Position numbers and translations under genes: made by a program. Shown here piece by piece: positions 466 through 21,059 of a stretch of DNA of 21,847 nt (the first letter of the stretch is position 1; each line of letters begins with the position of its first letter). Under the pieces are notes generated by a model. The model was not told the DNA's origin, did not search any database, and saw nothing but the letters and a program-made list of their open reading frames with translations. Origin of the DNA: a virus. Location: positions 1 to 21,847 of IMG/VR virus record IMGVR_UViG_3300030020_000113; one strand, given 5' to 3'.

Positions 466-1464
466 ATGTATACTGAAAAAGAACTTAGCAGCCTAATTGA
501 GGATGTAACGAAAGAATTTACATCTCATTTAGCTAAAGCTGAACAGTCTTTGGGTTTATCCAAAAACGAAGACGAGCAGCCTAAAGACAAGAAAATCAAC
601 GGCATGGCCGATGACAAGAAAAATAGCGCTAAAGACGAAAAAACTAGCGCTAGTGAAAATAAAGAAGGCGGAAAATCAGACGATAACCGCAATGCTTCTG
701 CAGATCAAAAGCAAGAAGGCAATGATGCCAAAAAAGAAGCTTCTGCGGATAAATCTGGAAAACCGATGGAAGGCGAAAGCCACGCAGATAAAGGCATTAA
801 AGATCAACATCAACAACAAGCTGGTGCGAATCCTGCTCAAGGTGAAGATCATGGTTACGACGATGAAGACATGGCGCATATGCATTCTATGTATAGCTCA
901 ATGCCTAGATCTGAATTAAAGGCTCACCACGATTGTATCCGTAAATGTATGGACGGAATGGCTATGTCGATGAGCGAAAATGAAATGGCAAAAGCCGAAA
1001 TGGAAGACAGCAAAGAAGGCGAATATCGCCCTAATGGTGGTCCTCATGATGGTGAAGCAACTAGCAAAAAAACGGCTCCTGCAAGCGGAACTCAAGCTTT
1101 AGAGAAATCTGAAAAATTTCTAGAAGTTGACACCACTTCAGTTAAAGAAGTTCAGATTTTAAAATCAGAACTTCAGGCTGCTAAAGCTGAAGCGGAAGCC
1201 ACTAAAAAGAACTTAGACGCAGTAGAAACTTTCTTAAAAGAATTTGTAAAGAAAGCGGCTCCTGCAGGAAAAGCAATCACTTCGTTGGATGTTATCGCTA
1301 AAACCGAAAGCATGACGAAGGAAAAGCCACTTTCTAAGAGTGAAATTGATTCCAAGCTTCTAGCTAAAGCGAAAGATCAGTCTCTTTCTAAGTCAGATAG
1401 AGATGCCATTAACAGCTACTACTTTACAAAAAACATTGAAAAGGTTAGCCATCTGCTTAAGTAA
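466..1464 (+). CDS. Putative prohead scaffold/core protein
   Basis: This 332-residue protein sits 35 bases before the major capsid gene, the usual place for a scaffold or prohead core protein. An AGAGGAG ribosome binding site precedes the ATG. Residues 1-30 look helical. Residues 35-130 are low complexity, rich in Lys, Glu, Asp, Ser, Asn and Gln. Residues 130-185 are Met- and His-rich with two Cys (157, 161). Residues 214-262 form a likely coiled coil (Leu/Ala/Glu/Lys heptads), followed by a Lys-rich C-terminus. KSE occurs at 214-216, 233-235 and 291-293, and KSD at 309-311, a pattern shared with other genes here. High charge, disorder and a coiled coil are typical of scaffolds. No protease motif is visible. 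The role rests on position and composition, not on a recognised family. Confidence 0.6.
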   Translation: MYTEKELSSLIEDVTKEFTSHLAKAEQSLGLSKNEDEQPKDKKINGMADDKKNSAKDEKTSASENKEGGKSDDNRNASADQKQEGNDAKKEASADKSGKPMEGESHADKGIKDQHQQQAGANPAQGEDHGYDDEDMAHMHSMYSSMPRSELKAHHDCIRKCMDGMAMSMSENEMAKAEMEDSKEGEYRPNGGPHDGEATSKKTAPASGTQALEKSEKFLEVDTTSVKEVQILKSELQAAKAEAEATKKNLDAVETFLKEFVKKAAPAGKAITSLDVIAKTESMTKEKPLSKSEIDSKLLAKAKDQSLSKSDRDAINSYYFTKNIEKVSHLLK

Positions 1465-1499: not shown

Positions 1500-2903
1500 A
1501 TGTTAGAACAACTTCAGGGCCTCATGAAAGCATTGGAAGCAGGCAGTTATAATGCAGCCCCTAGTACTTTAGTACAAGGTGCAGCTTACCAAATCGAAGA
1601 TTTAGCGCCAGTTATGGTAAACGTGACTGCTGCTGAAGAAACCATCAAATTGCAAAAAATGTTGGACAGTCGTCCTGCAAAAAGCAACCTTTATCAGTAC
1701 AACCGCAAGTTGTCTGTAGGTCGTTTCGGTGGATCTGCTGCATACGAAGGTATGCTCGGAGCCAAAAAGACTGGTCAAGCAGCTCGTCTCGTAATTCCAA
1801 TGGCTTACTACGTTGATACTCGTGAGCATTCACTGGTAGCTAACGCAGTTGAAACTTTCGATAAAGTTTCTGCTGAAGAGCGCCAAGCACAAGACGCAGC
1901 TCTTAACTTGGCTCAAGATATCGAGTTCGACCTTTTCGCAGGTAACTCAGATTTCTCTAACCAAGGTGTTTTCGATGGTAACCCAGCGTTAGTACCTGCA
2001 TTGCCAAATATGCGCGGTGTTGATCTTCAAGTTCGTGCTTCTGACTATGAGCGCAATGGACAAGATCTCATGTTCGCATCATACGGTTCAAGTGCAACTG
2101 TAGTGTTCTCTGCAGGTGGCGCAGCCCTCACCCAATCATTGATTGAAGATATTTCAGTTCGTTCTGCCCTTAACATGGGTCGCGCTGACAAACTTATGCT
2201 TGATCCTTCTTCTCTCTCTGCTTACAACAAAATTAGCCAAGCTAAAGAACGTATCGTTCTTGCTGGTAGCCCACAAGAAGCTACTGGTTCTCACTTACGT
2301 ACTCAATGGACTTCTAGCGGTGCAATCACCATGGAAATGTCTCAGTACTTGCGTAAGCAAATTAGCCCTATCAACCAATCTATCGTAGGCGCTCCTGCTG
2401 CTCCAACAGCAACTGCTACTGACGGTGGCGCTGCTGGATCACTCCTCCAAGCTGCTGCTTATAGCTACCAAGCTGCTGCAGTTAACGCTTTCGGCGAAGG
2501 CCCAACTTCTGCTGTAACAACTGTTACTCCTGCTCTCGCTGGAAATAAAGTATCAGTTGCTATCGGTGCAGTTGCCGGTGCTCTTTACTACCGCGTTTAT
2601 CGTACTGCTGCTGGTGTGGCTGCAAACGTTGCTCCAGGACCACTCTTTATCGGTAATATTCTTGCTCTTCCAAGCGGTGCTACTTTCACCGACCTTGGTA
2701 ACTTGGCTCCAGGTGCTTTAACCGGTTTCTTGATTCAAAAAGACACGATGCATTTAGGTGAGCTAAGCGGATTCAAAAAAATCCAATTAGGTATTAGTCA
2801 ATTGTCAATCAATAACGCTTTCTATCGTTGGACTACTCTCGCAGTAGAAGCTCCACGTAAGAACGCTATCGTTGAAAATCTTCAAGGACAACTTTTCACC
2901 TAA
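1500..2903 (+). CDS. Major capsid protein with Ig/FN3-like insertion
   Basis: This is a 467-residue protein with a strong AAGGAG site six bases before the ATG. It has the layout of an HK97-fold major capsid protein: an N-terminal arm rich in Ala/Gln/Leu, a central alpha/beta core, and a C-terminal segment ending in an Arg/Lys-containing beta strand (residues 410-467). Residues about 297-405 look like an inserted Ig/FN3-like domain: a Pro/Ala/Thr linker, then YSYQAAAVNAFGEGPTS, and later ALYYRVYRTAAG, the typical strand patterns of fibronectin type III repeats. The core resumes at about 410. Such insertions often sit on the outer capsid surface. A strong terminator follows directly, as expected for the most highly expressed head gene. 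No cleaved N-terminal delta domain is obvious, consistent with a separate scaffold gene upstream. The family call is by pattern recognition, without a database match. Confidence 0.8.
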   Translation: MLEQLQGLMKALEAGSYNAAPSTLVQGAAYQIEDLAPVMVNVTAAEETIKLQKMLDSRPAKSNLYQYNRKLSVGRFGGSAAYEGMLGAKKTGQAARLVIPMAYYVDTREHSLVANAVETFDKVSAEERQAQDAALNLAQDIEFDLFAGNSDFSNQGVFDGNPALVPALPNMRGVDLQVRASDYERNGQDLMFASYGSSATVVFSAGGAALTQSLIEDISVRSALNMGRADKLMLDPSSLSAYNKISQAKERIVLAGSPQEATGSHLRTQWTSSGAITMEMSQYLRKQISPINQSIVGAPAAPTATATDGGAAGSLLQAAAYSYQAAAVNAFGEGPTSAVTTVTPALAGNKVSVAIGAVAGALYYRVYRTAAGVAANVAPGPLFIGNILALPSGATFTDLGNLAPGALTGFLIQKDTMHLGELSGFKKIQLGISQLSINNAFYRWTTLAVEAPRKNAIVENLQGQLFT

Positions 2904-3010: not shown

Positions 3011-3544
3011 ATGAAGGCCTGTACTGCTTGTAAAGAAAATAAAGAATTCAAAGATTTTGGAAAAGCCAAATTTGGTAAAGATGGACTTAGAGCTATCTGT
3101 AAAAAATGTCATAACTCCGATTCAAGGGAATGGCAAAAAGAAAACCTAGAAAAGATCCGTTTAAGAAGAAGAGCAAAAAAAGAAAAAGATCCTGTGTTAG
3201 CATCACAAAAACGTGCAGTTCAGACATTAAGAAGGAAAGAAAAATTAAAAATATACGATCAGGAATACAGGAAAAATAATCCAGGAAAATCTAACGCAAA
3301 GACTGCTAGGAGACGTGCCCAAAAAAGAGCCGCTACACCTAAATGGTTGACAGAAGATCATTGGACCCAAATAGAGATTTTTTATATAGAAGCTGCAAAG
3401 TTAACACAAAGTACCGGAATACCACATGAAGTCGATCATATAGAACCTGTTATGGGCAAAGACAGAAAAGGTCTTCATGTACCTTGGAATCTAAGAGTTA
3501 TTACTAGATCCGAAAATCGTCATAAAAGTAGAAAAGTCTTATAG
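3011..3544 (+). CDS. HNH homing endonuclease 1
   Basis: This 177-residue protein is a free-standing phage HNH endonuclease. The N-terminus holds a treble-clef-like zinc site (C4xxC7 and C30xxC33, with the typical KDG between them). A long basic helical linker (residues 40-108) follows, then ATPKWLT and the HNH core: HEVDHIEP (H139, D142, H143), GLHVPWNL (N160) and SENRHKS (N169, H171). Enzymes of this type cut phage DNA and promote their own spread into related genomes. The gene has no ribosome binding site; its ATG lies five bases after a YAATCTTA motif. It follows the capsid terminator, and its stop overlaps the stop of the opposite-strand thymidylate kinase by six bases. It shares the ATPKWLT and GLHVPWNL blocks with the HNH gene at 19056, so the two are paralogues. 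Confidence 0.92.
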   Translation: MKACTACKENKEFKDFGKAKFGKDGLRAICKKCHNSDSREWQKENLEKIRLRRRAKKEKDPVLASQKRAVQTLRRKEKLKIYDQEYRKNNPGKSNAKTARRRAQKRAATPKWLTEDHWTQIEIFYIEAAKLTQSTGIPHEVDHIEPVMGKDRKGLHVPWNLRVITRSENRHKSRKVL

Positions 3545-4162
3545 GGGTAGTGTTGCGATCTTATCTAGAATACCGTCTAGTTCTTGTCGTACTTCGTCAA
3601 TAGTACCATTCGCATTAACTCGAAATACTTTCATGAACTGTCCATATTGATTAAGATGTTTTTCGAAAGAAGATCGAACTTTCTCTTGAAAAGGTACACC
3701 TTTCATCTCAATAACATCGGAAGTGCCACGATTATTGCGACGCTTAAGGGCTGTATCTGTACTAACATCAAAATAAATAACTGCGCCGGGTAACTGGGTT
3801 TCAAGTCCTACAAAACGCTCATAAAGATTCTTAGTAAAATCTTCGTCCACATTATGATCGGTATAGGCAAGATGACTCAACCATCCACGATCAGATACGA
3901 CTAACTGTGAATTTACCGTTTTTAACCATCGATCATTTTCGAATCGCATTGCGGAAAAAACAAGCTCCATTGCTTCGCCGCTTAGGTTACTATTTGGGTC
4001 AAGAACTAATTCCCGCATTTTCACACATGCTGGAATATGCGGATTGCCCACTTCGCGGGTTTCGGTTACTGAAAAACCACGTTTCTTGGCCTGTTCAATG
4101 AAATATTTAAGGCCGGTTGTCTTTCCTGCGCCATCTGTACCTTCGAATTCTACTTTAAGCAT
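3539..4162 (-). CDS. tmk: Thymidylate (dTMP) kinase
   Basis: The 207-residue product has the features of a P-loop thymidylate kinase, which phosphorylates dTMP to dTDP for DNA synthesis. The Walker A loop is GTDGAGKTT (residues 8-16), the DR motif is D91-R92, and a lid-like Arg cluster RRNNRG lies at 141-146. The length fits the family (about 200-215). The third residue of the DR motif is Gly rather than the common Tyr/Phe/Trp. Start: ATG at 4160-4162 with AAGGAG nine bases upstream on the minus strand. It is the only minus-strand gene in the window, has its own promoter, and converges on HNH gene 1 with a six-base overlap of stops. A nucleotide-metabolism gene inside a virion cluster suggests an inserted cargo gene. 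A related deoxynucleotide kinase specificity cannot be excluded. Confidence 0.88.
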   Translation of the reverse strand: MLKVEFEGTDGAGKTTGLKYFIEQAKKRGFSVTETREVGNPHIPACVKMRELVLDPNSNLSGEAMELVFSAMRFENDRWLKTVNSQLVVSDRGWLSHLAYTDHNVDEDFTKNLYERFVGLETQLPGAVIYFDVSTDTALKRRNNRGTSDVIEMKGVPFQEKVRSSFEKHLNQYGQFMKVFRVNANGTIDEVRQELDGILDKIATLPL

Positions 4163-4746: not shown

Positions 4747-5681
4747 TGAGTAATCCTCCATTTAAGCCAGGACCACCATATGTAGAACAACAAGCTCCTT
4801 ATGAGCCGGTTCCTAAACCTACATCTGGTCCATTAGACGGCACTCCTCAACCTCCGAATTTCGATAAGGATAAGCAATTCTATTCTGCTGCATATCCAGT
4901 CCACATGAGTAAATCGTCTGGTCTATTGAGTAGATGTGAGCCTATTCTTACTCCACAATTATTGATTTCTCGTTATCTCAAAGGGATTCCCTTGGCATTT
5001 CCAAATGGTGATTCTTACAGTGCTGAAGACGTTAAAGACCAAATTGGTCTGGCTATTAATGAAGTCGAAATGCTTTGTAAGATTACTTTAAGCAGAGAAC
5101 AGTTTACTGATAAGGTCCCATTCGATATCGCTCTCTACAAAAGTTTCATTTATTTAAAAACAGAACAAAATCCTATCTTGGCTGTACAAAGCGTTCAAAT
5201 TGTTAGTAGTGATGGGTATGCGGTTTTTAAAATTCCACCTGAATGGCTTGAGCCTAGTAACTTTGCTAAAGGTATTGTTAACGTAGTACCAATTCTAGGT
5301 GCCTACTCTGTTGCTAGTGGCGGCGGAGTTGGTGCTTACGGTGGTATTCCGTATTTGAATGTTTTTAGTTCACTTACTTTTGTTCCTGGATTTTGGCAAA
5401 TTGTTTATCAGACCGGTGTTTCAAAAATTGAAGGTCAGTTTCCTACAGTGATCAATGATTTAGTGGGAACCATTGCTGCCATTAATATGCTCTCTGTGAT
5501 CACTAATCTGTTTCTGACTACAAGTCAGTCATTGAGTAGGGATGGTATCAGCCAATCATCTTCTGGACCTGGCCCTAGAATGTACCTTCCTTACATCGAA
5601 CAATTAGAAAAGAAAAAAATGGAATTGGTTGGTAAAGTAAAAGCTACTTTTGCAACTAAATTCTTGGTATCGAATATTTAA
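4746..5681 (+). CDS. Putative head-tail adaptor/neck-type structural protein
   Basis: I chose the ATG at 4746, which overlaps the previous stop as TAATG, rather than the ATG at 4737; this gives 311 residues. The N-terminal 50 residues are Pro-rich and probably flexible (PPFKPGPPYVEQQ). The next region resembles a small helical connector domain: LLISRYLKGIPL, then EVEMLCKITLSREQF. A beta-rich middle contains FKIPPEWLE, and a Gly-rich stretch (GGGVGAYGG) precedes hydrophobic helices. Head-completion adaptors commonly have this plan of short helices grading residues laid out on a connector ring, but I cannot name the family. The C-terminal helix is Lys-rich. The next gene begins four bases after its stop. 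Confidence 0.7.
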   Translation: MSNPPFKPGPPYVEQQAPYEPVPKPTSGPLDGTPQPPNFDKDKQFYSAAYPVHMSKSSGLLSRCEPILTPQLLISRYLKGIPLAFPNGDSYSAEDVKDQIGLAINEVEMLCKITLSREQFTDKVPFDIALYKSFIYLKTEQNPILAVQSVQIVSSDGYAVFKIPPEWLEPSNFAKGIVNVVPILGAYSVASGGGVGAYGGIPYLNVFSSLTFVPGFWQIVYQTGVSKIEGQFPTVINDLVGTIAAINMLSVITNLFLTTSQSLSRDGISQSSSGPGPRMYLPYIEQLEKKKMELVGKVKATFATKFLVSNI

Positions 5682-5685
5682 TTTT

Positions 5686-6810
5686 ATGGAATGTAATTTA
5701 ATAAATAAATCTGAAAATCCTGCCCAATATGCTGAACAAGCCAATAAAGGGTTGATTTTACTATATCCAGTAAAGATTAATGGTCAAGATTGTAGGTCAG
5801 ATAATGGTATCCCATACCATTCTACCATCAAAGAATTCGACGCAAATAAAGATCACGCTCACGAAATTCATAACATGGCCAAACACCTTCCATTGAATCC
5901 TCCTGATGCAAAAAATACTCAGATAGAACCAAACCAATTTAAAGATCGTAATGGATCGGATGTTTTTGTCATTACATTAAAAGGTAATTCTGCAGAGAAA
6001 ATGAAAGAGCATCATGGTAAATTTGCACATATGGGACTTCCTGAACAACGTGAATGGGCACCCCATATCAGTGTTCCTAAAGATATGCATGACAAAATTA
6101 AATCCTCTGGCGCTAAAACCGCAAAGGAAGCAGGAATTGAATTTGGTAATGCAGAATTGAAAAAGGGTCCTAAGAGGCTAAAAACCTACCATCATCAATC
6201 AGATAGTGCTGAACCCCAATTTCCTGATCAGAGCGACTATACCGCAAAATTATCCGTCAATAAGTCCGAACAAGTCCTAGAAAAAGGCGCACTAAAAAAT
6301 GTCGGTATAGGATTGGGCATGGCAGCAGCGCTAGCTGGAGGCACTAATCATACTTCGAATATCAAAAATTCTCCCGACATGCAAGCCCATCAAAATAATT
6401 ACGATCACAAAAAAATGCTAAATGCTATCATGCAAGTAGAATCAAGTGGTGGGAAAAATACAAACCACGCTCCTACTTCTCAAGGTCAGGCTTATGGTAA
6501 ATGGGCTTTAATGCCTAACACCATTACAGATACTATTAAGGGACACAAGGACCTTCAAGCAAAATATGGGAAGGCCCTGACATTAAAGGGTCCTCAATTG
6601 CACAGATTTATGCAGGATAACAAAGGTCTTGAAGAAATAATAGCAGATCGTCATCTAGCCCACATAGAGCACAATTTTAAAAATAACCCCGATCAAACGG
6701 CTTTTGCTTGGAATCAAGGTATAACTGGTACCAAGAAGAACAATGCAAATTCTATTTCAAATCATCCCTATGTCAAAAAGATTAGAGATGCGTACAGTAA
6801 GGAAAAGTAA
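5686..6810 (+). CDS. 2H phosphoesterase-like / lytic transglycosylase-like fusion protein
   Basis: I chose ATG 5686 (374 residues); an in-frame TTG at 5650 would overlap the previous gene. Residues about 20-165 carry the paired H-x-S/T motifs of 2H phosphoesterases: YHSTIKEF (H45, T47) and APHISVPK (H127, S129), 82 residues apart, each after a predicted strand (KGLILLYPV; DVFVITL). Known 2H enzymes cleave cyclic or 2',3'-linked nucleotide phosphates. Residues 205-219 form a short Gly/Ala hydrophobic segment. Residues 238-374 look like a lysozyme-superfamily transglycosylase: IMQVESSGGKN with a likely catalytic E252, YGKWALMPNTI, and AFAWNQG, matching the AYNxG region. Such domains open the cell wall during DNA delivery. 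KSE occurs at 8-10 and 193-195. A virion-carried two-domain enzyme is likely; the substrate of the 2H domain is unknown. Confidence 0.78.
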   Translation: MECNLINKSENPAQYAEQANKGLILLYPVKINGQDCRSDNGIPYHSTIKEFDANKDHAHEIHNMAKHLPLNPPDAKNTQIEPNQFKDRNGSDVFVITLKGNSAEKMKEHHGKFAHMGLPEQREWAPHISVPKDMHDKIKSSGAKTAKEAGIEFGNAELKKGPKRLKTYHHQSDSAEPQFPDQSDYTAKLSVNKSEQVLEKGALKNVGIGLGMAAALAGGTNHTSNIKNSPDMQAHQNNYDHKKMLNAIMQVESSGGKNTNHAPTSQGQAYGKWALMPNTITDTIKGHKDLQAKYGKALTLKGPQLHRFMQDNKGLEEIIADRHLAHIEHNFKNNPDQTAFAWNQGITGTKKNNANSISNHPYVKKIRDAYSKEK

Positions 6811-8658: not shown

Positions 8659-9126
8659 ATGGCAAAAAATAACCGGGTAATAGACAACAATTCTTTACAG
8701 GATCCAGACCAAATTAAGGTTGTTGAATACAATCCATCGTCTGGTGGACAAAAATCGCTTACGGTTGGACCTAGACTTCTGCCAATCCAAATCGCTGGTG
8801 GGTATACAACTGATGCTTCTGCAAAAGTGGCACTTCCATTTCTTGGCGCAAATCTTGCAATTTACAATAACGGTACTTTGGGGTCAGTTACTATTGGGAG
8901 TTCTACAATCACCGCCTTAGCAGCCGGTGCAACAGATGCAAATGGTAATGTTGGAGTAGCATGCCCTCCAAATGCATGGACCTATTTATCTGCGGGGAAC
9001 AATCAGTATGTGTATACTAGCGCCAATACCCTTTTAGTTTACATAATGGAAGACCCTACTAGGATCGCACAAGAAACAGGACCATACGCACAACAAAATG
9101 CAAACAATACACAACCTATCTCTTAA
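8659..9126 (+). CDS. Putative small virion protein
   Basis: The product has 155 residues, with an AGAGGA site five bases before the ATG. After a polar N-terminus the sequence is Ala, Gly, Thr, Val and Asn-rich with alternating hydrophobic residues (ANLAIYNNGTLGSVTIG; YVYTSANTLLVYIMEDP), as in small beta-sandwich virion proteins such as head decoration or tail-associated subunits. The C-terminus is Gln/Asn-rich. It overlaps the next gene by 29 bases. No specific family is recognised. Confidence 0.72.
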   Translation: MAKNNRVIDNNSLQDPDQIKVVEYNPSSGGQKSLTVGPRLLPIQIAGGYTTDASAKVALPFLGANLAIYNNGTLGSVTIGSSTITALAAGATDANGNVGVACPPNAWTYLSAGNNQYVYTSANTLLVYIMEDPTRIAQETGPYAQQNANNTQPIS

Positions 9127-10144
9127 TAAGATTTTAGATGAAGATTTTCTACAATCTTTAGCTAAATCTGCAGATCTATACAAGATCGGATCCAATTCTG
9201 TATTGGACCCTGAAGAGATTCGTATTGGGTTGAAGGTGGTTCCAAGATTTGTCATGTCATTGCTCATTAGCGCTTTGACACCGATGCCACTCAATACCAG
9301 TATAGAACTTCAACTTCCATTTGGCAAAAACGCTCGTGTTAGTGCAAACAAGAATGCTGCCGATGACTATACGGGATCTGTCTATGACAACAATAAATTA
9401 GTTTACAGTTTTCAAAATAGATCAATTCCTGGACTTGGTATCATCCTACTATCTACATTCGAACTTTACGAATTAGAAAAATTAGAAAAAGAGACTATTG
9501 AGCCAACGGAACATGCTGAAGCCAAAATACAAAAATTGATCGATGCAAGAATGGAACTTCATTCTTTGGTTAGTCGCGTAGTTGAGAATAAAATTTCTGA
9601 AAGAGACGCTCTTAATAAACTTATGATGGATAGGCTCAATGAAGCTTTAGCCAAAGAACATAAGAAAAATGAACAGATTTCGGATGTAACAAAAATTGCC
9701 CATCAATCTGCGCAGTCGGGTGAGTATTTCCAGGGAATGGCTAATGGCATGGAAGTTGCCGATTCAATTGCAAATAATAAAGAGCCCAATTTTGCAGAAG
9801 CACCTAAAAAAAAATTGGATTTTAAGGCAGAAGATATGGCCAAAAAAGAAGAGTCTCCCGAAAAAGGTTCTCCATTAAAAGCATTTTTGGAACGAAAGAA
9901 AAAACCAAAAGAACATAGAATTGAAATTGCTAAATCCGAAACTATCAACTGCCCTGATTGCGGACAAACCATTTTTGGCCAAGGGTCTTTTTCTTGTTGT
10001 TTGTGCTATGGCCAAGATCAGTATAGCAAAATTTGGATTAAGAAATCAGAAGAAAGTATTCAGATAAGATTTTCTCGTGGTTGGGATAAAGAAAATATTC
10101 AAATGCTCCTGGACACTTTGAGGAAAACAAATGGAAAAGATTAA
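9098..10144 (+). CDS. Zinc-ribbon protein of unknown function, upstream of the mCpol-like gene
   Basis: A 348-residue protein whose ATG lies 29 bases inside the preceding gene; no clear ribosome binding site is visible. Residues 1-120 form a mixed domain with a hydrophobic core (RFVMSLLISAL; GLGIILLSTFELYEL). Residues 120-200 are helical and strongly charged, likely coiled coil. Residues 235-278 are Lys/Glu-rich. A zinc ribbon follows: C285xxC288 and C300/C301 with C303, and then a short basic domain. KSE occurs at 279-281, just before the zinc ribbon, and at 316-318. The stop overlaps the start of the next gene by 14 bases, so the two are likely co-translated. A packaged or scaffold-associated protein is plausible by its resemblance to its neighbours; function unknown. 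Confidence 0.7.
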   Translation: MQTIHNLSLNKILDEDFLQSLAKSADLYKIGSNSVLDPEEIRIGLKVVPRFVMSLLISALTPMPLNTSIELQLPFGKNARVSANKNAADDYTGSVYDNNKLVYSFQNRSIPGLGIILLSTFELYELEKLEKETIEPTEHAEAKIQKLIDARMELHSLVSRVVENKISERDALNKLMMDRLNEALAKEHKKNEQISDVTKIAHQSAQSGEYFQGMANGMEVADSIANNKEPNFAEAPKKKLDFKAEDMAKKEESPEKGSPLKAFLERKKKPKEHRIEIAKSETINCPDCGQTIFGQGSFSCCLCYGQDQYSKIWIKKSEESIQIRFSRGWDKENIQMLLDTLRKTNGKD

Positions 10145-12170
10145 GCCAGGGATGCTATACATAGCTGTCGATGGTGATGGCATTGGAAAACTAGTAGGTC
10201 GGGCCGTAATTGCTAACGATGTTGAAGAACTACATAAAGTTTCTGGCCGTATTGATGCGGCCCAAGCATATATTGATCATTGGTGCAAGCAAAATGACGG
10301 AGCAAAAATTTCTGGTGGTGGAGATGAAGCTACAATGGCTATTCCTCCAGAGTCTAGAAAGAAAATAAAAGAATTAAGAAGCGGTGTCGAAAAATCATTT
10401 GGGTACACTATTTCTGCTGGAGTAGGGAAAAATCTTTCAGAGGCTGGCACCGCCCTATTGGTTGCGAAACTTCGTGGCAAAAATAGAATTGTTTATTTCA
10501 ATAAATATATCAAAGAAGATATTAAAAAAGCCAAAAGAAGAGTCAGAGAAAAAAGGGCAACACAAGAGGAATATAAACTTGCTGAGGCCTATCTGGAAAA
10601 GAGTGAACTTATGGGACTATGTAATTTACATAAAGCGGATGCTCAATTGGTGGACAAGAAAACTGCTACCAAAAAACCTAGAGGGCCTAAATTAGGGGAT
10701 AGCAAGCCCAAACTTACCCATGAAGGAATGATGGGGCTGGATTCTCCTACTCATTCTAGATTAGCACGACAACATGAAAAAATTGCATGGAATGAAGGTA
10801 GGGGTACCCCCCATCAAGAAGGGCACCAGGCAATGCATGATATGCATAGAGCCTACTCTACTGCTACAACCCCTATTGAAACTGGACATGAAAGTTCTGA
10901 TGATTGGGCTAGGGACAAAGAAATAAATGCAAATCCAGAAAAAAGACAGGCGTGGAGACAAGGAAATCAAAAAAGACATGAAGACCACGCAAAAGGGCTA
11001 CATGAAAAGGCATCGGCCATAAGCGCCACTGCTCGTCATTTGGACAACCACATGCTGGATCATAAGAAATCCGAAAAATATTGTAACTTACACAAAAGCA
11101 AGCTTTGCGATATCCATAAAAACGATGAAGATGCTGAAGAACACAATCACGATAATGAAGATGACCGTACAGATGATTGCGCTTTTTGTCAAGATCTTGA
11201 CGCACAAGAAAATGCTGACGGCACTGCCGGTATGCACGATGACTGCCCCGCTTGTCAAGAATACAACCAGTCTAATCAAGAAACCGGTCACATTGATGAT
11301 TGTCCTTATTGTCAAACAGAAAATATTACTGGATCTCAAGCAAATCCACAACACGAGGACACATGTGACTGTCCTTGGTGTGCTGAGTATGATCAGGACC
11401 AATCAAATGTAGAAGCTCAAGACATGGGAGCAGAACACCCAGAAAATTGCCCTCAGTGTCAAGAAATGTATGGAGATGCAGTTGAAAGCGATCCAGCACA
11501 AAATGGCCAACAAGACCCTAATTTGCAAGGACACGAAACGGCTGAAGAAGTACTTAATTTACTAGATCAAGAACCTGGTCAAGGAAATGCAGATCCTACT
11601 CAGGAAGCCGGACAAATAGATAATACTGAGATGCCGCAAGGCGATGCAATGAAAGACAATGTTTCTGTGAAGTCGAATTTTGGAGACGCACAAAAACAAA
11701 ATATTTCAGACCAAGATCAGGATTTTCAGCAAGATACACAAGCAGTTAGTGATCCTAATAGCCCTATGCCTGGAGAAGAACAGGTCATGGGCGATTCACA
11801 AGGTGGTGATGAACAACCAGATATGATGGGTGTTCTGCAAGGTGGATTACAAGACAATCAAGATCAGATACAACGAGAAAAAGTTGTTAATATGGTATCG
11901 CAAACTCTTCAACAATTTAAAGCCAATAAGCAATCGTTGGAGGCCACAAGAGAGCAAAATGAAGGCCTGTACACTTCTTGTATTCAAATGTTAAAATCAA
12001 TGATTGAACTTTGTAAATTACTAGGCCTTGAACCATCGCCTACATCTCCTAATTCAGCGCCTGCACCTACTGCGCCTGCTCAACAACAGTCTCCTCCAAA
12101 ACCAGCACCTATGCAACAAAAAGCGGCTCCTATGGAGGGTGCCGCCCCAGACCCAAAAAATCAGGGCTAG
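10131..12170 (+). CDS. mCpol/GGDEF-like palm domain protein with CxxC repeats
   Basis: This 679-residue protein starts with GAGGAAAAC upstream of ATG 10131. Residues about 8-125 match the palm domain of the GGDEF/Cas10 (mCpol) class, which builds cyclic nucleotides: YIAVDGDGIGK (D14, D16, metal ligands), SGGGDEA (G63-G64-D65-E66), then ISAGVGKNLSEAGTALL and AKLRGKNRI, the conserved tail of these cyclases. Residues 160-345 are His-rich, with CNLH at 164-167 and 318-321 and CDIH at 326-329. Five CxxC knuckles follow (C350, C372, C391, C414, C440; spacing 19-26), typically DDCPxCQ. Residues 450-580 are Gln/Asp-rich, 583-635 helical, and the end is Pro/Ala-rich. KSE occurs at 157-159 and 313-315. 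It appears to be a virion-associated multi-domain protein. Catalytic activity is inferred, and a slippery site near its stop probably gives a longer form. Confidence 0.82.
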   Translation: MEKIKPGMLYIAVDGDGIGKLVGRAVIANDVEELHKVSGRIDAAQAYIDHWCKQNDGAKISGGGDEATMAIPPESRKKIKELRSGVEKSFGYTISAGVGKNLSEAGTALLVAKLRGKNRIVYFNKYIKEDIKKAKRRVREKRATQEEYKLAEAYLEKSELMGLCNLHKADAQLVDKKTATKKPRGPKLGDSKPKLTHEGMMGLDSPTHSRLARQHEKIAWNEGRGTPHQEGHQAMHDMHRAYSTATTPIETGHESSDDWARDKEINANPEKRQAWRQGNQKRHEDHAKGLHEKASAISATARHLDNHMLDHKKSEKYCNLHKSKLCDIHKNDEDAEEHNHDNEDDRTDDCAFCQDLDAQENADGTAGMHDDCPACQEYNQSNQETGHIDDCPYCQTENITGSQANPQHEDTCDCPWCAEYDQDQSNVEAQDMGAEHPENCPQCQEMYGDAVESDPAQNGQQDPNLQGHETAEEVLNLLDQEPGQGNADPTQEAGQIDNTEMPQGDAMKDNVSVKSNFGDAQKQNISDQDQDFQQDTQAVSDPNSPMPGEEQVMGDSQGGDEQPDMMGVLQGGLQDNQDQIQREKVVNMVSQTLQQFKANKQSLEATREQNEGLYTSCIQMLKSMIELCKLLGLEPSPTSPNSAPAPTAPAQQQSPPKPAPMQQKAAPMEGAAPDPKNQG

Positions 12171-12190
12171 CCGGACCCATTCCTGCTAGC
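12152..12190 (+). promoter_or_regulatory. Probable -1 ribosomal frameshift signal
   Basis: In the frame of the preceding gene the bases read C CCA AAA AAT (12152-12161), which holds two X-XXY-YYZ heptamers, CCCAAAA and AAAAAAT. Four bases later two GCTAGC copies (12166-12171 and 12185-12190) can pair across a 13-base loop; the first covers the TAG stop at 12168. A shift of -1 opens a frame to 12361. Confidence 0.65.
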
Positions 12191-12361
12191 AAACTATCTG
12201 CAAAACATACCACTACTCATCTTGCCGCAAATCCTATTCCTGAGGGTGGCGTCAATGGAAAGGGCCAGAAGAAGATTACGGACGAAAACGGTCGAGTCCG
12301 TTTCATCGATATGAAAGAGGGTAGAGTCTTAGGTCCAAATGGAGTACCTATAAAAGGTTAA
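12161..12361 (+). CDS. -1 frame C-terminal extension of the mCpol-like protein
   Basis: The -1 frame relative to the 10131 gene is open from the slippery site to TAA 12359-12361 and adds 66 residues, giving a 743-residue fused product. It has no ATG or ribosome binding site of its own near its beginning. The translation looks protein-like, with TDENGRVRFIDMKEGRVL and a GPNGVPIKG end, and fills what would otherwise be an unusual 190-base gap in a tightly packed cluster. The next gene begins one base after its stop. Either programmed frameshifting produces a minor long form, or an indel in the A6 run (12155-12160) broke a single gene. Confidence 0.65.
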   Translation, partial: SGLAGPIPASKLSAKHTTTHLAANPIPEGGVNGKGQKKITDENGRVRFIDMKEGRVLGPNGVPIKG

Positions 12362-12362: not shown

Positions 12363-13163
12363 ATGCCTGATTTTAAAGTCACCTTAGATATATCGGCACT
12401 TACCCAATTTCTTGAAAACTTCAAGAAAGAAGTAGTGTCTGATTTAAAGAAATCAGTAAAGGGACTTGCAGTAGATACCCAAACCCATATTGTAGAGGAA
12501 GCACAAAATAAATTAAAGTCCAGCCGTAAAATTTATTTAGAAAATCTATCTCAAGCCGAAAAAATTGATGACTATTTATGGGAGATTACTTTAAAAGCAG
12601 ATGCTGAGTGGATTGAAAAAGGATTGCCTGACAATTTCGATATGAAGAAGGGTCTTTTGAATACCAAAAAACCTGGGAGTAAAGGGGAAATTAAAACTGG
12701 CAAGGATGGTAAAAAATACAGAATCGTAGCTTTTGATCAGGGAAAGGTAGCATCTGAATTAAGTAGTAATGATGATAAACTAAAATATCAACAAGAACTT
12801 ATAAAGAAAGTAAAATCTGAATTAAGAAAAAGAGATATTCCTTACAAAAAATTAGAAATAGATCCGAAGACAGGAAGTCCAAGGATAGGTAAATTACATT
12901 CATTTGATATAGAGAGTGGGATCCCAGGAAGAGGAAATACTCCAGTGTTGCATGGGCTATCCATTTATCAAACCAAAAAAGATGATGGTAGCGTAAAAAG
13001 AAGCATAACAACCTTTAGAACCGTTAAAGAAGGTCAAGACGGTAAATGGATTCATCCAGGGCTAGAAGGTAAAAAGTTCTTCGAAGAAGCGAAGAAATGG
13101 GCTGAAGATAGATGGGAAAAAGATATTTTACCATCTTTGATGTCTAAATACGGAAGTAGATAA
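12363..13163 (+). CDS. Putative tail-completion / HK97 gp10-like protein
   Basis: The product has 266 residues. The N-terminus (about 1-55) is amphipathic helical (LTQFLENFKKEVVSDLKKSVKGLAV, shown here only as a pattern). A domain with EWIEKGLPDNFDMKKGLL at 83-100 and a later KWIHPGLEGKKFFEEAKKW (228-246) is typical of HK97 gp10-like minor tail or tail-completion proteins, which usually carry a W/HPG signature before an Ala/Phe-rich helix. The middle is Lys/Asp-rich and longer than in small members of the family. The ATG lies one base after the stop of the frameshifted frame, without a strong ribosome binding site, which supports translational coupling to that frame. The next gene follows within two bases. 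Confidence 0.62.
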   Translation: MPDFKVTLDISALTQFLENFKKEVVSDLKKSVKGLAVDTQTHIVEEAQNKLKSSRKIYLENLSQAEKIDDYLWEITLKADAEWIEKGLPDNFDMKKGLLNTKKPGSKGEIKTGKDGKKYRIVAFDQGKVASELSSNDDKLKYQQELIKKVKSELRKRDIPYKKLEIDPKTGSPRIGKLHSFDIESGIPGRGNTPVLHGLSIYQTKKDDGSVKRSITTFRTVKEGQDGKWIHPGLEGKKFFEEAKKWAEDRWEKDILPSLMSKYGSR

Positions 13164-13165: not shown

Positions 13166-14200
13166 ATGTCTTTATTTTTTGGCGATATAAGAATTCGCAC
13201 TGCAATCGAACTAGGCCTTGAGGATATTCAAAAAAATCCTTGGCTTCTAGACGATATATTAGGAGACACTCTTTCCAATCAATATCTGCGTGAACGTTAC
13301 GGCAGCCAAATCGAATCATGTAAGCAATGGTTTGCCAATAATAGGGTGTACACTTTTATGTCCAATAGGGACGATAAAATGGAATTTCCTTGTGTAGTAA
13401 TTCAAATTGGTAATAGCAATGAAAAAGCTGACATGAAACACATGGGAGACTTAAGTGTTGAAAAAGTTAGACTGATGCCAAATAATATCAATAAACAAAT
13501 CCCATATATAATCAAACCGATTCCTGGCTCGTATAATCCGACTTCTGGTGCATTTACTTTCTCTTCTACCATTGATTTTACTAATATCAGTCCTGGCATG
13601 CTTCTTGTAGATCCTGCTACAGGAACTGGCTATTCGATTCAAAGTATTGGTTTGAATAATTCAATTAATTTATTTAAAGGATTGAGTCTAACAGCAGCAA
13701 AATATGGCGTCCTTTCAGAATTTCAATTCTATGAAACTAGAATTAGTCATACCTTCATGAAGGAAAACTACAAAATTACCTGCAATGCTATGGATCAACA
13801 GACTTTGCTTTGGCTTCATGCAATTACAACCTATTCTTTACTTAGATACCGCCAAGCACTGTTAGAAAAAGATGGTTACGCAGAAAGTCTTATTTCAAGT
13901 GGTCAAATGTATCCCAATCCAGATTATTCTGACGCAGGTCAAGTAATATGGTCTAGGGATATAGAGATTACCGGTCAAGTGGAAAATAGATGGTACAATC
14001 AACCACATAGATTACTTGAAACTGCTGTCTTGGGTCAAGGTGGCACCTCTACTACCAAACCAGATGGAACTCCTGTATCTGAAGGCGAAGGTTATATTGG
14101 TGGACTTAAAATTATAAGCAATATAACAGATACATTTGAAGATTTGAATACAGTTAATTGGAGCACATTAGCCGATATAGCTTACAAGGATGAAGAATAA
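13166..14200 (+). CDS. Putative neck/tail-terminator structural protein
   Basis: This is a 344-residue protein two bases after the gp10-like gene. The N-terminal 75 residues are helical (AIELGLEDIQKNPWLLDDIL), followed by DKMEFPCVVIQIGNSNEKAD, a strand pattern like the one seen in tail-terminator or neck proteins. The middle (100-190) is beta-rich with Pro/Gly turns, and the C-terminal half has a helical ATTYSLLRYRQALLEKDGY-like segment and then Gly-rich loops. Position just before the sheath/tube block fits a tail terminator or neck subunit. I cannot assign a named family. Confidence 0.62.
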   Translation: MSLFFGDIRIRTAIELGLEDIQKNPWLLDDILGDTLSNQYLRERYGSQIESCKQWFANNRVYTFMSNRDDKMEFPCVVIQIGNSNEKADMKHMGDLSVEKVRLMPNNINKQIPYIIKPIPGSYNPTSGAFTFSSTIDFTNISPGMLLVDPATGTGYSIQSIGLNNSINLFKGLSLTAAKYGVLSEFQFYETRISHTFMKENYKITCNAMDQQTLLWLHAITTYSLLRYRQALLEKDGYAESLISSGQMYPNPDYSDAGQVIWSRDIEITGQVENRWYNQPHRLLETAVLGQGGTSTTKPDGTPVSEGEGYIGGLKIISNITDTFEDLNTVNWSTLADIAYKDEE

Positions 14201-14545: not shown

Positions 14546-15263
14546 ATGACCAAATGCTATAAGTGTAAATCAATTAAAGAAAACCAAGAATTTGGCCATA
14601 ATTCTACTCGTCCTAACGGATTACAGGATAGATGTAAACCTTGCAGAAAGATTAGCGGCAAGAAAAGTTACAAGAAAAATATAAAAAAGATATTGAAATA
14701 CAGAGAGTTACATAAAGAAAAACAAAAAGAATACCATAAAGCTTGGCGTTTAGAAAATGCCCAAAAGATAAAAGAAGACGCCAATAAATACTATGGAGCC
14801 CATAAGGAGCAAAGGATTGATTATCAGAACGATTATTACTTATACCATAAAAAAGAAAGGGTTAGCTATCAGGGTCAGTACATAAAAAATCGTAGAAAGA
14901 ATGATAAATTATTCAATTTTGAATCCAATTTAAGGTCTCGAACTTCAGCAGCTTTTAGGGGGAAAGATAAATCTCAAAAAAACCCTTAAAATGCTTGGAT
15001 GTTCCATAGAAGAGGCATTTAGCTATATACAGTCGCTATTTAGGGGTAACATGTCATGGGAAAATAGAGATTTGTGGGATATAGACCATATAATACCGTT
15101 GGCTATGGCCAAAACTATCGAAGAACTGGAATCTTTATGTCATTACACTAATTTGCAGCCTCTTTGGAAAGAAGATCATAGAAAAAAGACAATTATGGAT
15201 ATGCAAAAAATAAAGATTAATAAAAACAATAAGTTAATAGAGATGAATACTATTGTAGATTGA
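14546..15263 (+). pseudogene. HNH endonuclease 2, split by a one-base insertion
   Basis: Two frames together make one HNH endonuclease. The first part (14546-14989, 147 residues) has a treble-clef zinc site (C4xxC7, C30xxC33), a basic linker with a Tyr/Lys/His-rich repeat, and the start of the family block RSRTSAAFRGKDKSQK. It then stops in an A7 run (14976-14982). With one A fewer, the text continues as TLKMLGCSIEEAFSYIQSLF into the second part (14991-15263), which holds DIDHIIPLAMAKT and CHYTNLQPLWKEDH, the HNH core of this family. The ATG at 14991 alone would give a fragment lacking the zinc finger. The indel could be real decay, a sequencing error in a homopolymer, or repaired by transcriptional slippage. 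It lies between two genes that share an N-terminal module. Confidence 0.85.
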
Positions 15264-16274: not shown

Positions 16275-18425
16275 ATGTCACAAAGAATTGTTACTCCGTG
16301 GTTAAACACAAATGTCCCAGGTGCCTATACCAACACTCAGGTGATTTCAAATGCATCTGGCTTGGCTACCTCAGGTGTCGTCCTCATCATGGGCGAAGCT
16401 AGTGCGGGTCCTGATTATACCGTTACAACATTAGCCAATAACTTTTTTGGTCCTTCTGCCTTAAATACCGTTAGAAGTATTTATGGTTCAGGTCCAATCG
16501 TTGATGGTTTCGCAGCTTTATGTGCTTCAAGCAATGATCCAGATATTACCGGTGCTCCATCTTCAATTTATATCTGTAAAACAAATAGAGGTCGTGAAGC
16601 ATCTGCTTTCATGTTGACCCATTCTGCTTCTACTTATGGGACATTAGTTGCTTCAAACTATGGATCCGGTGGAAATCAATATAGTTACACCACTACCGCA
16701 CTTCAAGCTGAAGTTGCTCCAACCATTACCGGAAATACTATCACTTCATACAGTGGTCTTTCTGGTGCTACTTTTACTGTTCGGGTAAATGGTGGTCCTT
16801 CCATAGTAATTACTCCTACAGGAACAATTACTAACGTTGCGACATTGGTAACTTCATTAAATGCTACTTTCACAGCAATGGCTACAACTTTAGTTGCTGC
16901 TCCTGGAACTGCTCCAAATACTGTTTCTATCAGTCTTCCAGCCGATGCTGCTGCTTATAGCGAAGGATTCGGAAAATCGTTTGAGTTAATCGATTCGACT
17001 CCAGGTGATTTGGCTGCATTAGGATTTTCTTCAGGTCTCTATACTTCTTCGGATGAACCAGCGGTTGAAGTTCAAATCGTTAATTCTAGCACTGGTCTTA
17101 ATGAGACTCTTAATATTTCTCCAGTAATCGCTCTTTCTATGGGCTATGAAGGAACAACTGCAACTGTTACCATTAATGCTACTACATTAACTACTACTGT
17201 AACTGGTGGAATTGGAGCAAATTTATCTATAGAATTAAATCAATTCACCACTATTGGTCAACTTGCGGCCTACATTAATTCTCAACCAGGTTATTCGGCT
17301 AGTTACAATTCTTCAGTAAATTCAAATCCTACTTCTGCTTTAGATCAAGTAACTGCTCTTGGGATCGCTTCTACCGCAGATGTTCAGCCAGGTCGTATCA
17401 AAAACTCTGTTGCTGCTTTCGAAGCCGCTCTCTCAACCTCTACTGCGGTTAACTTTACTTCAACGGCAGTTGCTGGTCTTCCAGATCCTGCTGCTCTTGC
17501 TTATCTTTCAGGTGGATTGCTCGGACCGACTCTCGCTGCTGATATCGTGAATGCAATTGCCCAATTTGCTGGAATTCAAGTGAACATTATTGTTCCTTTA
17601 TTTTCTCAAGATGCAACTGCTGACATCGCTGCTGGCAATACTTCTCCATCTTCTACCTATACGATTAATGCGATCAATGAATTGCTAAAATCTCATTGTA
17701 TTCAATATTCAACTCCTACTTTGAAACGCAATCGTACTGCAATTTTATCGATCAACGATACTTATGCAAATTGCAAAGTTCAAGCTCAAGAACTTGCAAG
17801 TTATCGTTGTGATTTGACTTGTCAGCAAGTTACACAAATTAACTCTTTGGGTAATAGTACCTTGTTCTTGCCTTGGTATGCTGCTTGTTTGGCTGCTGGG
17901 ATGCAGACTGCAGGTTTCTACAAATCAATTTGCAATCATTTGACGAACGCAATTTCGTTCCAAGATCCTGCTGGTTATAACTCTGGTGATCCAGATGATG
18001 TTTCTGATGCTTTGACTGCAGGACTTTTAGTTCTTGCTCAAAACACTTCAGGCATTCTTTGGGTATCAGATCAAACTACTTACGGACTCGACCAAAACTT
18101 TGTATACAATTCAATTCAATCAGTTTATCTTTCTGATATTTTATCTCTTGACTTGGCACAAAGTTTCCAAACTGCGATCGTTGGTAAGTCTGTAGCGGAC
18201 GTTTCTGCTGCTTCAGCTTTAAGTTTCCTGCAACAACGTTTTGATTATTACAAAAAACTGAAAATGACTACCACTTCAAGTGATGCGCCACTTGGATACA
18301 AGAATGCAAGTATCCAAATTACGGCTCCCTCAATGTATGTGAATGTGGAAGCAAAATTAACAACCAGCATTTACTTCGTAGCAATCAATCTTGCTCTTAG
18401 TGCAGTTACACAATCTGCTTCATAA
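16275..18425 (+). CDS. Contractile tail sheath protein
   Basis: The product has 716 residues, with AGGAG upstream. It begins like phage sheath proteins, with an N-terminal VPGAY motif (residues 14-18) and VVLIMGEASAGP, a pattern found where sheath subunits start to stack. Residues 100-350 are Thr/Ser/Ala-rich beta domains, probably surface insertions. The C-terminal half (from about 400) holds the conserved core: IVPLFSQDA, then HCIQYSTPTLKRNRTAILSIND, and a C-terminal extended strand VEAKLTTSIYFVAINL. In myoviruses the sheath contracts around the tube to drive injection. The immediate downstream gene is a tube-sized protein, the standard sheath-tube order. At 716 residues it is somewhat longer than T4 gp18, which the insertions explain. 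Confidence 0.92.
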   Translation: MSQRIVTPWLNTNVPGAYTNTQVISNASGLATSGVVLIMGEASAGPDYTVTTLANNFFGPSALNTVRSIYGSGPIVDGFAALCASSNDPDITGAPSSIYICKTNRGREASAFMLTHSASTYGTLVASNYGSGGNQYSYTTTALQAEVAPTITGNTITSYSGLSGATFTVRVNGGPSIVITPTGTITNVATLVTSLNATFTAMATTLVAAPGTAPNTVSISLPADAAAYSEGFGKSFELIDSTPGDLAALGFSSGLYTSSDEPAVEVQIVNSSTGLNETLNISPVIALSMGYEGTTATVTINATTLTTTVTGGIGANLSIELNQFTTIGQLAAYINSQPGYSASYNSSVNSNPTSALDQVTALGIASTADVQPGRIKNSVAAFEAALSTSTAVNFTSTAVAGLPDPAALAYLSGGLLGPTLAADIVNAIAQFAGIQVNIIVPLFSQDATADIAAGNTSPSSTYTINAINELLKSHCIQYSTPTLKRNRTAILSINDTYANCKVQAQELASYRCDLTCQQVTQINSLGNSTLFLPWYAACLAAGMQTAGFYKSICNHLTNAISFQDPAGYNSGDPDDVSDALTAGLLVLAQNTSGILWVSDQTTYGLDQNFVYNSIQSVYLSDILSLDLAQSFQTAIVGKSVADVSAASALSFLQQRFDYYKKLKMTTTSSDAPLGYKNASIQITAPSMYVNVEAKLTTSIYFVAINLALSAVTQSAS

Positions 18426-19055: not shown

Positions 19056-19721
19056 ATGTCAATTGCTCACCCTAATTTAAAGACTTGTTCTAACAAAAAA
19101 TGTAATTTAGTAAAGCCACTATCGGAATTCGATAAGCTAAAGACTACGAAAGATGGATTGAATTCTTGGTGTAAAGAATGTTGTAGGATTTATAAATCAA
19201 TACATTATAAGAAAAACAAAGATGGAATCTTAAATAAAAATGCTATTTATCAACACGAAAATAAGAAAAGAATAAATTCCCAAAGGGCAGAATATCGCTT
19301 AAAAAACAAGGAAAAAATTGCCCTACAGCATCTAGAGTATCGCCTAAAAAATAAAGAAAAAATTGCTATAAAAAAAGCTGAATATATGTCAGTATATTAC
19401 GCTAAAAACAAGAAATTAATAGATAATAGAAACGCCACATATGATAGGCTTAATCAGGGCAGAAAAAACGCTAGGATCGCTAAACGTCGAGCTTTAAAGG
19501 TTGAAGCCACTCCTAAATGGTTAACGGCAGATCAATTAATGGAAATAGAGAATTTTTACATAAAAGCAAACGACTTAAGTAAAACTACCGGAATTTCTTA
19601 TCATGTAGACCATATTGTTCCTATTCAGGGTAAGAATATAAGAGGTCTTCATGTTCCTTGGAATCTGCAGATCTTAACGGGACACGAGAATGTCTCTAAA
19701 GGAAATAAGCTTATCTCTTAG
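19056..19721 (+). CDS. HNH homing endonuclease 3
   Basis: This 221-residue HNH endonuclease is a paralogue of the one at 3011. The N-terminal zinc site uses C11/C16 and C39/C42, with KDGLNSWCKEC between. The linker is extended and holds a tandem repeat of 15 residues (EYRLKNKEKIA plus four, at 79-93 and 94-108). The C-terminal core has ATPKWLT (151-157), YHVDHIVPI (H183, D185, H186), GLHVPWNL (N203) and HENVSKGNK (N212). It starts five bases after a YAATCTTA motif without a ribosome binding site and follows the tail tube terminator. Like HNH 1 it sits after a strong terminator and before a structural gene, as expected for a mobile intergenic cassette. Confidence 0.93.
   Translation: MSIAHPNLKTCSNKKCNLVKPLSEFDKLKTTKDGLNSWCKECCRIYKSIHYKKNKDGILNKNAIYQHENKKRINSQRAEYRLKNKEKIALQHLEYRLKNKEKIAIKKAEYMSVYYAKNKKLIDNRNATYDRLNQGRKNARIAKRRALKVEATPKWLTADQLMEIENFYIKANDLSKTTGISYHVDHIVPIQGKNIRGLHVPWNLQILTGHENVSKGNKLIS
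19290..19379 (+). repeat. Two tandem copies of a 45-base repeat in HNH gene 3
   Basis: Copies lie at 19290-19334 and 19335-19379. Both encode EYRLKNKEKIA followed by four variable residues. It lengthens the basic linker between zinc finger and nuclease core; base differences are mostly at third positions, so the copies are not very recent. Confidence 0.85.
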
Positions 19722-19723
19722 TC

Positions 19724-19731
19724 CAATCTTA
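19724..19731 (+). promoter_or_regulatory. YAATCTTA motif before the 19737 gene
   Basis: CAATCTTA followed by TAAAT lies five bases before ATG 19737, directly after the HNH gene 3 stop. No ribosome binding site is visible, so a leaderless or near-leaderless transcript is suggested. Confidence 0.55.
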
Positions 19732-19736
19732 TAAAT

Positions 19737-20096
19737 ATGGTTAATTTACCGAACGCATCAACTGCAAATACAGAATCTACAGCAACCAATACAGCTGATG
19801 TGGCTGCTGCCCAAAGCGAATTCATAGCTGCTACGACCGTTTTAATCAATCAGGCTATATCTAACGGTCTATTCCTTGTACAGCCAGTATTACCGCCTTT
19901 GGTGACTTCGGCCTACGTTAAGACTTATTTTACTAACTTGGGATATGCCGTACTTTTCCCAATTTATCCTGTATATGGCTACAATCCATCATTTGTGCCG
20001 GGATTTCCAGAAGTGCTCCCTCCAGGATACATAAACCCCTTCTTCGATCACGCTTATCCAGGCCCACCAAGAATTCAGATTTCCTGGACCTCTTAA
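19737..20096 (+). CDS. Hypothetical tail-region protein
   Basis: This 119-residue protein has an Ala/Thr/Asn-rich N-terminus (helical, 1-40) and a Pro/Tyr/Phe-rich C-terminal half (for example FPIYPVYGYNPSFVPGFPE). The many Pro and aromatic residues with few charges suggest an extended or fibrous structural segment. It starts five bases after a YAATCTTA motif with no ribosome binding site. No family is recognised; the place between tube and baseplate-like genes suggests a tail component. Confidence 0.7.
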   Translation: MVNLPNASTANTESTATNTADVAAAQSEFIAATTVLINQAISNGLFLVQPVLPPLVTSAYVKTYFTNLGYAVLFPIYPVYGYNPSFVPGFPEVLPPGYINPFFDHAYPGPPRIQISWTS

Positions 20097-20110
20097 CAAT
20101 TAATTACAAG

Positions 20111-20118
20111 CAATCTTA
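20111..20118 (+). promoter_or_regulatory. YAATCTTA motif before the 20172 gene
   Basis: CAATCTTA followed by ACT lies 53 bases before ATG 20172, whose own AAGGA ribosome binding site is at about 20158-20162. It is the most distant copy from its start codon. Confidence 0.45.
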
Positions 20119-20171
20119 ACTACATCAGCTTCATGGCATGGGTCATGATTCTAGGTTAAGGAAAATGGAAA

Positions 20172-21038: not shown

Positions 21039-21051
21039 AAACAAACAACTG

Positions 21052-21059
21052 CAATCTTT
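21052..21059 (+). promoter_or_regulatory. Variant motif (CAATCTTT) before the 21076 gene
   Basis: CAATCTTT followed by ATG-like bases lies 16 bases before ATG 21076. It differs from the other copies in the last base; the surrounding GCAATCTTTAT resembles the 8623 copy. Confidence 0.35.

Follow-up and report, generated by a model that had tools for sequence, protein, structure and literature searches.

A complete mCpol domain heads a virion-block protein that is conserved in a lineage of phages related to Myxococcus phage Mx1

The mCpol proteins known so far are defence enzymes, and the available text of two reports on the Panoptes system (PMC12657218, PMC12657230) describes an effector that is triggered by loss of the mCpol product. 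This paper describes an mCpol domain encoded by a phage. The open reading frame (ORF) at 10131-12170 of IMGVR_UViG_3300030020_000113, an entire 21,847-base virus record of IMG/VR that constitutes a genome fragment and is called the window below, starts with a genuine and complete mCpol domain, as confirmed by profile scores above the family cut-offs, a minimal palm fold like that of Panoptes OptS, and two metal-binding aspartates. The domain looks catalytically active and may synthesise a cyclic dinucleotide or a related product. Moreover, the gene is kept in the same virion block by many related phages and is not a stray. Its product is probably a multidomain head protein of the polyvalent or ejection type, of which the mCpol cyclase would be packaged and injected and would alter host cyclic-nucleotide signalling at entry.

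The protein, its domain and the residues concerned are located as follows:

10131..12170, + strand: mCpol-headed virion-block protein, 679-residue frame-0 product (Pfam, NCBIfam)
10155..10505 (about), + strand: mCpol domain, residues 9-125 (Pfam PF18182, AlphaFold2 model, Foldseek match to OptS)
10170-10172, 10176-10178, 10323-10325 and 10467-10469, + strand: residues D14, D16, D65 and K113, within the mCpol domain

The ORF contains, in this order, the motifs DGDGIG (D14, D16), GGGDEA (D65, E66), SAGVGKNLSEA and AKLRGKNRI, exactly as listed in an earlier note on this DNA, which had assigned the domain to mCpol within the Cas10-palm/GGDEF superfamily; the profile scores, the confidently predicted model and the catalytic residues fully support that assignment. 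The profile comparison that the earlier note had proposed came out in favour of mCpol: Pfam PF18182 (mCpol) matched residues 10-122 with an E-value of 7e-17 and 62.2 bits (cut-off 26.4), and NCBIfam NF033576 (mCpol) scored 55.9 bits (cut-off 40), whereas the Cas10 palm profile PF22335 (Cas10-Cmr2_palm2) stayed at 17.8 bits, or 20.1 with the first 190 residues, below its cut-off of 27, and GGDEF PF00990 was not listed for this protein at E up to 1 in the Pfam scan. The nearest solved sequences found by phmmer were the Panoptes OptS chains 9mnr (E 2.5e-9) and 9nwn (E 1.9e-8), and a PADLOC scan returned a weak CARF_HEPN_mCpol match only. The structure prediction, likewise proposed earlier, was built with AlphaFold2 from a 13-sequence alignment of the window and related phage domains, and yielded a palm fold with a mean predicted local distance difference test score (pLDDT) of 94.7. 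Its best Foldseek matches in the PDB were the OptS entries 9pd0 and 9mnr (E 1e-9 to 1e-8, top 1.2e-9; root-mean-square deviation 1.6-1.7 Å; template modelling score 0.87 by target), followed by GGDEF domains and, lower, by Cas10. In a viral structure library the best match was one uncharacterised phage protein (E 4e-10), and several of the next ones were annotated GGDEF proteins or diguanylate cyclases of other phages. Alignment equates D6, D8 and D57 of OptS with D14, D16 and D65 of the window protein; D6 and D57 hold metals and are critical for OptS activity according to the available text of PMC12657218, and the corresponding pair, D14 and D65, is present in the predicted active site, as the earlier note had expected. 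An attempt to read product specificity from the position of OptS N34 was dropped, because a bacterial mCpol from Sulfitobacter also has Asp there.

The claim that the domain gene sits among structural genes was borne out as well, since a major head protein and a tail sheath could be named in the block, of which the direct neighbours of the mCpol gene are families without known function:

466..1464, + strand: scaffold-like protein with 6 K[SA]E motifs (Mx1 homologue, E 8e-14)
1500..2903, + strand: major head protein (phrog_752, E 2e-37)
9098..10144, + strand: virion-block partner upstream, 348 residues, contains KSE and has a homologue in Mx1
12363..13163, + strand: conserved virion-block protein downstream (phrog_16819, a family without known function)
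13166..14200, + strand: tail-terminator-like protein (phrog_1000 / PF23932, below the Pfam cut-off)
16275..18425, + strand: tail sheath (phrog_279, E 7e-24)

The label scaffold-like refers to the position ahead of the major head protein and to make-up only, there being no family match. PHROG families gave zero matches to the mCpol-headed protein at E up to 0.1, and a model of the phrog_16819 protein (pLDDT 83) matched nothing in the PDB at E up to 0.001.

Related loci and their records, labelled by L and G numbers respectively, were collected in scans that used the mCpol domain or the gene downstream of it as query and that returned 5, 5, 30 and 33 partly overlapping viral loci. One further locus was found on a contig in a Deltaproteobacteria metagenome-assembled genome (MAG; labelled Myxococcota by the tree tool), and a 114-kb contig carries a locus identical to that of the window. 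Myxococcus phage Mx1 was the sole true relative in the GenBank phage collection, in which OptS as query found no match; the tblastn match MT837983 (L008) was rejected as an ordinary GGDEF protein, and the MAG match L040 was left out, as it aligned at its C-terminal part only and its genome lacked a Pfam mCpol match. The 40 aligned rows minus L040 (bacterial, partial) and L043 (a copy of L003) left 38 phage rows. Within the stretches fetched, the phrog_16819 gene follows the mCpol gene in 37 of these 38 rows (the exception being L062), within 216 bases in 28 rows and at 390-2,341 bases in 9. For 11 rows, first reached via the phrog_16819 gene, this link exists by construction; among the other 27, 26 have the gene. 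When 14 records were searched with the mCpol family, 11 IMG/VR phages had one match each above the cut-off and Mx1 had one below it, while the Myxococcota MAG had two and the MAG of L040 none; in G009 a second, sub-threshold match lies at its GGDEF gene. The window protein itself consists of mCpol and uncharacterised parts, and relatives carry additional fused domains above the cut-off, namely GNAT (L025) and DUF5661 (L019, L021, L024); the Mx1 block includes an ART-PolyVal/NUDIX/GNAT protein. Among distant relatives of the phrog_16819 gene the slot before it varies, and L028 has, as judged by eye, neither mCpol nor a giant protein in it. The giant proteins that occupy this slot in L031, L032 and L036 contain Zeta-toxin domains (3/3) and RadC/JAB (2/3).

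Counterparts of OptS D6, D8 and D57 are all Asp in 31 of the 38 phage rows; leaving aside the nearest two, these intact rows share only 33-42% identity with the window. In a tree of 40 rows, with a small outgroup consisting of two bacterial mCpols, a fully supported branch parts the phage domains from these two, and the catalytic losses require three changes, all within a clade of 21 rows, Mx1 among them. The 17 window-like rows are all unaltered; they are grouped by their C-terminal tail and do not form one clade, as L027 joins the Mx1-like side. As to a second cyclase, GGDEF domains were detected in 11 of 32 phage records. All 11 belong to the 20 Mx1-like records, of which every one of the eight that exceed 120 kb had such a domain; the count was 0 for the 12 window-like records, although four of them measure at least 114 kb. 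The mCpol domain is thus intact in every row of the group without detected GGDEF, and it has decayed only inside the clade in which GGDEF was found. Two large records with altered rows (G011, Mx1) contain a GGDEF domain, and none was found in the 22-74 kb fragments that hold the other five altered rows. In the 11 records (L101-L110 and Mx1) the open frames that contain the GGDEF domain range from 264 to 1,367 codons, and K[SA]E motifs occur in 8 of these 11 ORFs within the 3.3-kb stretches fetched. In Mx1 the gene (L096 17173-17904), annotated as nucleotide cyclase and with an intact GGDEF motif, is located between the annotated prohead protease and major capsid protein, two genes behind the former. 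The notion that GGDEF simply replaces mCpol was weakened, as most GGDEF-bearing phages retain an intact mCpol.

A tripeptide signature connects the mCpol protein with other products of the block. KSE initially stood out on visual inspection of these proteins, after which all 4,737 tripeptides with at least 10 occurrences in three genomes were ranked for enrichment in the head-to-tail block. It took rank 1 of 4,737, with 43 occurrences in 25,806 positions inside the block versus 13 in 114,679 outside (one-sided p 3e-21 before correction; the second-best tripeptide reached 4e-5). Counts on 36 mCpol proteins (the 38 rows minus the near copies L046 and L071) gave 36 KSE after residue 125 versus 7.3 expected from shuffles and 27 KAE versus 11.4, the other five orders of K, S and E amounting to 2-11 versus 7.4-8.3. 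At least one K[SA]E is present anywhere in 29 of the 36 proteins, and in 12 it falls at residues 146-170, right behind mCpol. The two sites in the window protein are:

10599..10607, + strand: KSE motif, residues 157-159, putative prohead-protease site just past the mCpol domain
11067..11075, + strand: second KSE motif, residues 313-315, putative site

The mutually homologous scaffold-like proteins of the window and Mx1 contain 6 K[SA]E in 332 residues and 4 in 290, respectively. Moreover, Mx1 has a protein annotated as putative prohead protease, and a homologue of it (E 2e-31) is encoded by the 114-kb copy. In giant phage SPN3US, as the accessible part of PMC10052503 describes, the prohead protease cleaves head and ejection proteins after A-X-E. 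The simplest reading is that KSE represents the maturation site of this lineage and that the mCpol protein would be processed in the prohead. On that reading, the signature serves as a sequence-based predictor of the proteins that these phages take into their capsids. Separately, a KA..AG..NAAPSTL stretch in the putative prohead-protease proteins (L081 16193-17830; L096 13002-16721 / 19703-21103) resembles, by eye, the start of the major head protein.

In the favoured explanation the 10131-12170 product would be a head protein with a working palm-fold nucleotidyl cyclase at its N-terminus, which would enter the prohead and probably be trimmed at KSE sites by the prohead protease, releasing residues 1-159. 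The cyclase would be injected along with the DNA and, within the first minutes of infection, make a cyclic dinucleotide or related product from host nucleoside triphosphates, and this product would perturb nucleotide-based immunity or signalling of the host. The analysis establishes the family, the fold, the conserved catalytic residues, the conserved gene block and its KSE signature, whereas we infer packaging, cleavage, injection and activity; packaging and injection appear likely. Virion delivery had been guessed in the earlier note from gene order; lineage-wide conservation of the head-to-tail block and the KSE signature now lend it indirect support. Several observations weigh against this explanation. 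Seven of the 38 rows (Mx1, L015, L016, L070, L071, L072, L073) have lost at least one of the aspartates or lack the start of the domain (L016 and L073), and as they keep the rest of it, some role of the domain may be non-catalytic. The limits of the head-to-tail block were drawn by hand and its ORFs called mechanically; taken alone, KAE shows only weak enrichment in the block (rank 89), mild enrichment is seen there for EKS (rank 50) and for SEK (rank 96) as well, and K[SA]E is missing from 7 of the 36 mCpol proteins. No Pfam protease family was found in either prohead-protease candidate (114-kb copy, Mx1), and the K-S/A-E motif is unlike the published A-X-E.

Other readings account for part of the same observations. 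The mCpol domain could serve as a structural scaffold of a virion protein, its catalysis being vestigial; its position in the head-to-tail block agrees with this, as does its persistence in the seven altered rows. The joint retention of D14, D16 and D65 in 31 of 38 rows at so low an identity argues for catalysis, though, the losses are confined to three changes in the clade where a second cyclase was found, and the domain seems dispensable in its slot, given the make-up of L028 and the Zeta-toxin giants of L031, L032 and L036, so that a scaffold role is regarded as quite unlikely. An enzyme that acts late in the producing cell rather than after injection, for example by adjusting cyclic nucleotides so as to time lysis, exclude superinfecting phages or help assembly, would fit a late-type virion block with genes mostly on one strand; the KSE signature and the polyvalent-type fusions in relatives point to the capsid instead, and late action is likewise considered rather improbable.

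The remaining alternatives differ from the favoured explanation in what the cyclase would do for or to the host. A product such as cyclic di-GMP or a similar metabolite might reprogramme host physiology (motility, envelope) in a manner unrelated to immunity, a reading that shares delivery with the favoured explanation and differs from it in target. The GGDE-like motif, the genuine GGDEF cyclase encoded by members of the Mx1-like clade and the annotated GGDEF proteins of similar fold in other phages are in line with it, and nucleotide signals from polyvalent GGDEF and RelA domains were proposed by Iyer et al. (2017), as far as the accessible text of PMC5512222 goes. Both profile and structure fit OptS far better than GGDEF, however, and a physiological target is possible yet doubtful. 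Finally, a phage-borne, Panoptes-like module that guards an infected or lysogenic host would accord with the defence role of the mCpols in the two Panoptes reports and with a plasmid-encoded mCpol that has a neighbouring two-transmembrane (2TM) effector, the single bacterial mCpol record obtained in plasmid searches. The phage domain is fused to a virion-block protein and does not stand alone, and 20 phage records, the window among them, yielded no match to PF18153, the family of 2TM-beta effectors, in a search that had no positive control, its controls having stayed silent. Neither did the family matches of the window genes scanned include any effector family. A complete defence system at this locus is not supported, and such a guarding role is thought very improbable.

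The boldest specific version of the favoured explanation, in which the host target is speculative, turns the logic of Panoptes around: the injected mCpol would supply the inhibitory cyclic dinucleotide from the first minute, so that Panoptes-type guard effectors would stay off even when other phage proteins destroy or absorb the signals of the host. Its appeal is that the Panoptes effector is triggered when the mCpol product is lost. Likely hosts lend it little support, and several searches speak against this version, which we judge unlikely. No mCpol was found in the 57 other genomes of the phylum of the phage-containing MAG, CD-NTases were found in only 3 of 58 genomes of that phylum, and just one of 20 phage records had Acb2. 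A protein with an Acb2/Tad1 hairpin is encoded at G007 43403-43567 (L080), in a phage in which mCpol is likewise present and intact (L065). If the version were true, a virion-delivered synthase would represent a counter-measure to a defence that watches for counter-defence. A lineage in which this catalytic domain is a fixed part of a virion-block protein would in itself imply that viruses can supply immune nucleotides in addition to removing them, perhaps at DNA entry. Parts of the proposal can be tested directly in Mx1, a sequenced relative with Myxococcus as its named host, in which mCpol is dead and GGDEF looks live.

Compared with known systems, the phage domain shares with OptS of Klebsiella pneumoniae (9mnr/9pd0) the palm fold, 31-32% identity in structural alignment, the equivalents of D6 and D57, and the GVG..L.EA and GKN motifs. 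OptS, with about 120 residues, stands alone next to the OptE effector, whereas the phage mCpol forms the N-terminus of a protein of 679-743 residues with no effector detected, and has GGDE where OptS has AADG. With GGDEF diguanylate cyclases it has the palm fold and GGDE in common, although the phage motif ends in GGDEA. The large size, the virion locus, and the GNAT domain in a relative and ART-PolyVal/NUDIX in the Mx1 block recall the polyvalent proteins of Iyer et al.; mCpol is not among the domains of these proteins in the accessible text of that paper, and here a single N-terminal cyclase is found across the lineage. In that text, phages are already proposed to deliver GGDEF and RelA domains that make signals, by which the concept of phage-delivered signal synthesis was anticipated. 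The putative prohead-protease homologue and the scaffold-like protein with repeated short motifs ending in Glu resemble head maturation of the SPN3US type, in which, in the accessible part of PMC10052503, the sites are A-X-E; the K-S/A-E sites here are putative. The available Panoptes literature presents mCpol as a host enzyme that is tripped by phages depleting its product (PMC12657218, PMC12657230). Searches of the literature on mCpol, Panoptes and phage diguanylate cyclases with virions, most subscription journals being outside their reach, found no report of an mCpol in a phage virion block, and no paper on phage Mx1 was found; within this coverage the mCpol domain and its fixation in the lineage appear new.

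The remainder of the fusion protein comprises the His-rich stretches and CxxC knuckles that the earlier note had described, with five knuckles at residues 350-443, and appears to extend beyond the frame-0 stop:

11178..11459, + strand: five CxxC knuckles in an acidic linker
11853..12035, + strand: helical-hairpin-like stretch, by eye, common to the fusion proteins of relatives
12152..12158, + strand: slippery heptamer C_CCA_AAA, putative -1 ribosomal frameshift site (also in L003, L005 and L039; C_CCA_AAG in L053)
12159..12361, + strand: -1 frame extension with conserved C-terminal tail, predicted 743-residue product

Past the stop at 12168-12170 the -1 frame stays open until the stop at 12359-12361, and the tail peptide is kept at the protein level in the -1 frame of L003, L005, L039 and L053. 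Most other relatives, including L027, have a similar tail in frame (by eye), L045 apparently has it in +1, and no such frameshift reading was found for L014 and L049 in the frames tried. A conserved -1 frameshift that appends this tail to give a product of 743 residues is therefore predicted. Support from RNA structure is weak: after the slip site, shuffled sequences folded as well in 9 of 200 cases for the window and in 31, 55 and 159 of 200 for three relatives.

Further ORFs were noticed between or within the virion genes of the window. Three HNH-homing-endonuclease-like insertions were recognised by eye (3011-3544; 14546-14989 with 14991-15263; 19056-19721), of which the middle one consists of two ORFs and is absent from that site in L003, L004 and L005. 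A minus-strand ORF at 3539-4162, within the virion block, resembles thymidylate or nucleoside-monophosphate kinases (GTDGAGKTT, by eye). The SLT-lysozyme ORF at 5650-6810 overlaps the following gene, and its counterpart in L005 is twice as long, with similarity confined to the N-terminal part.
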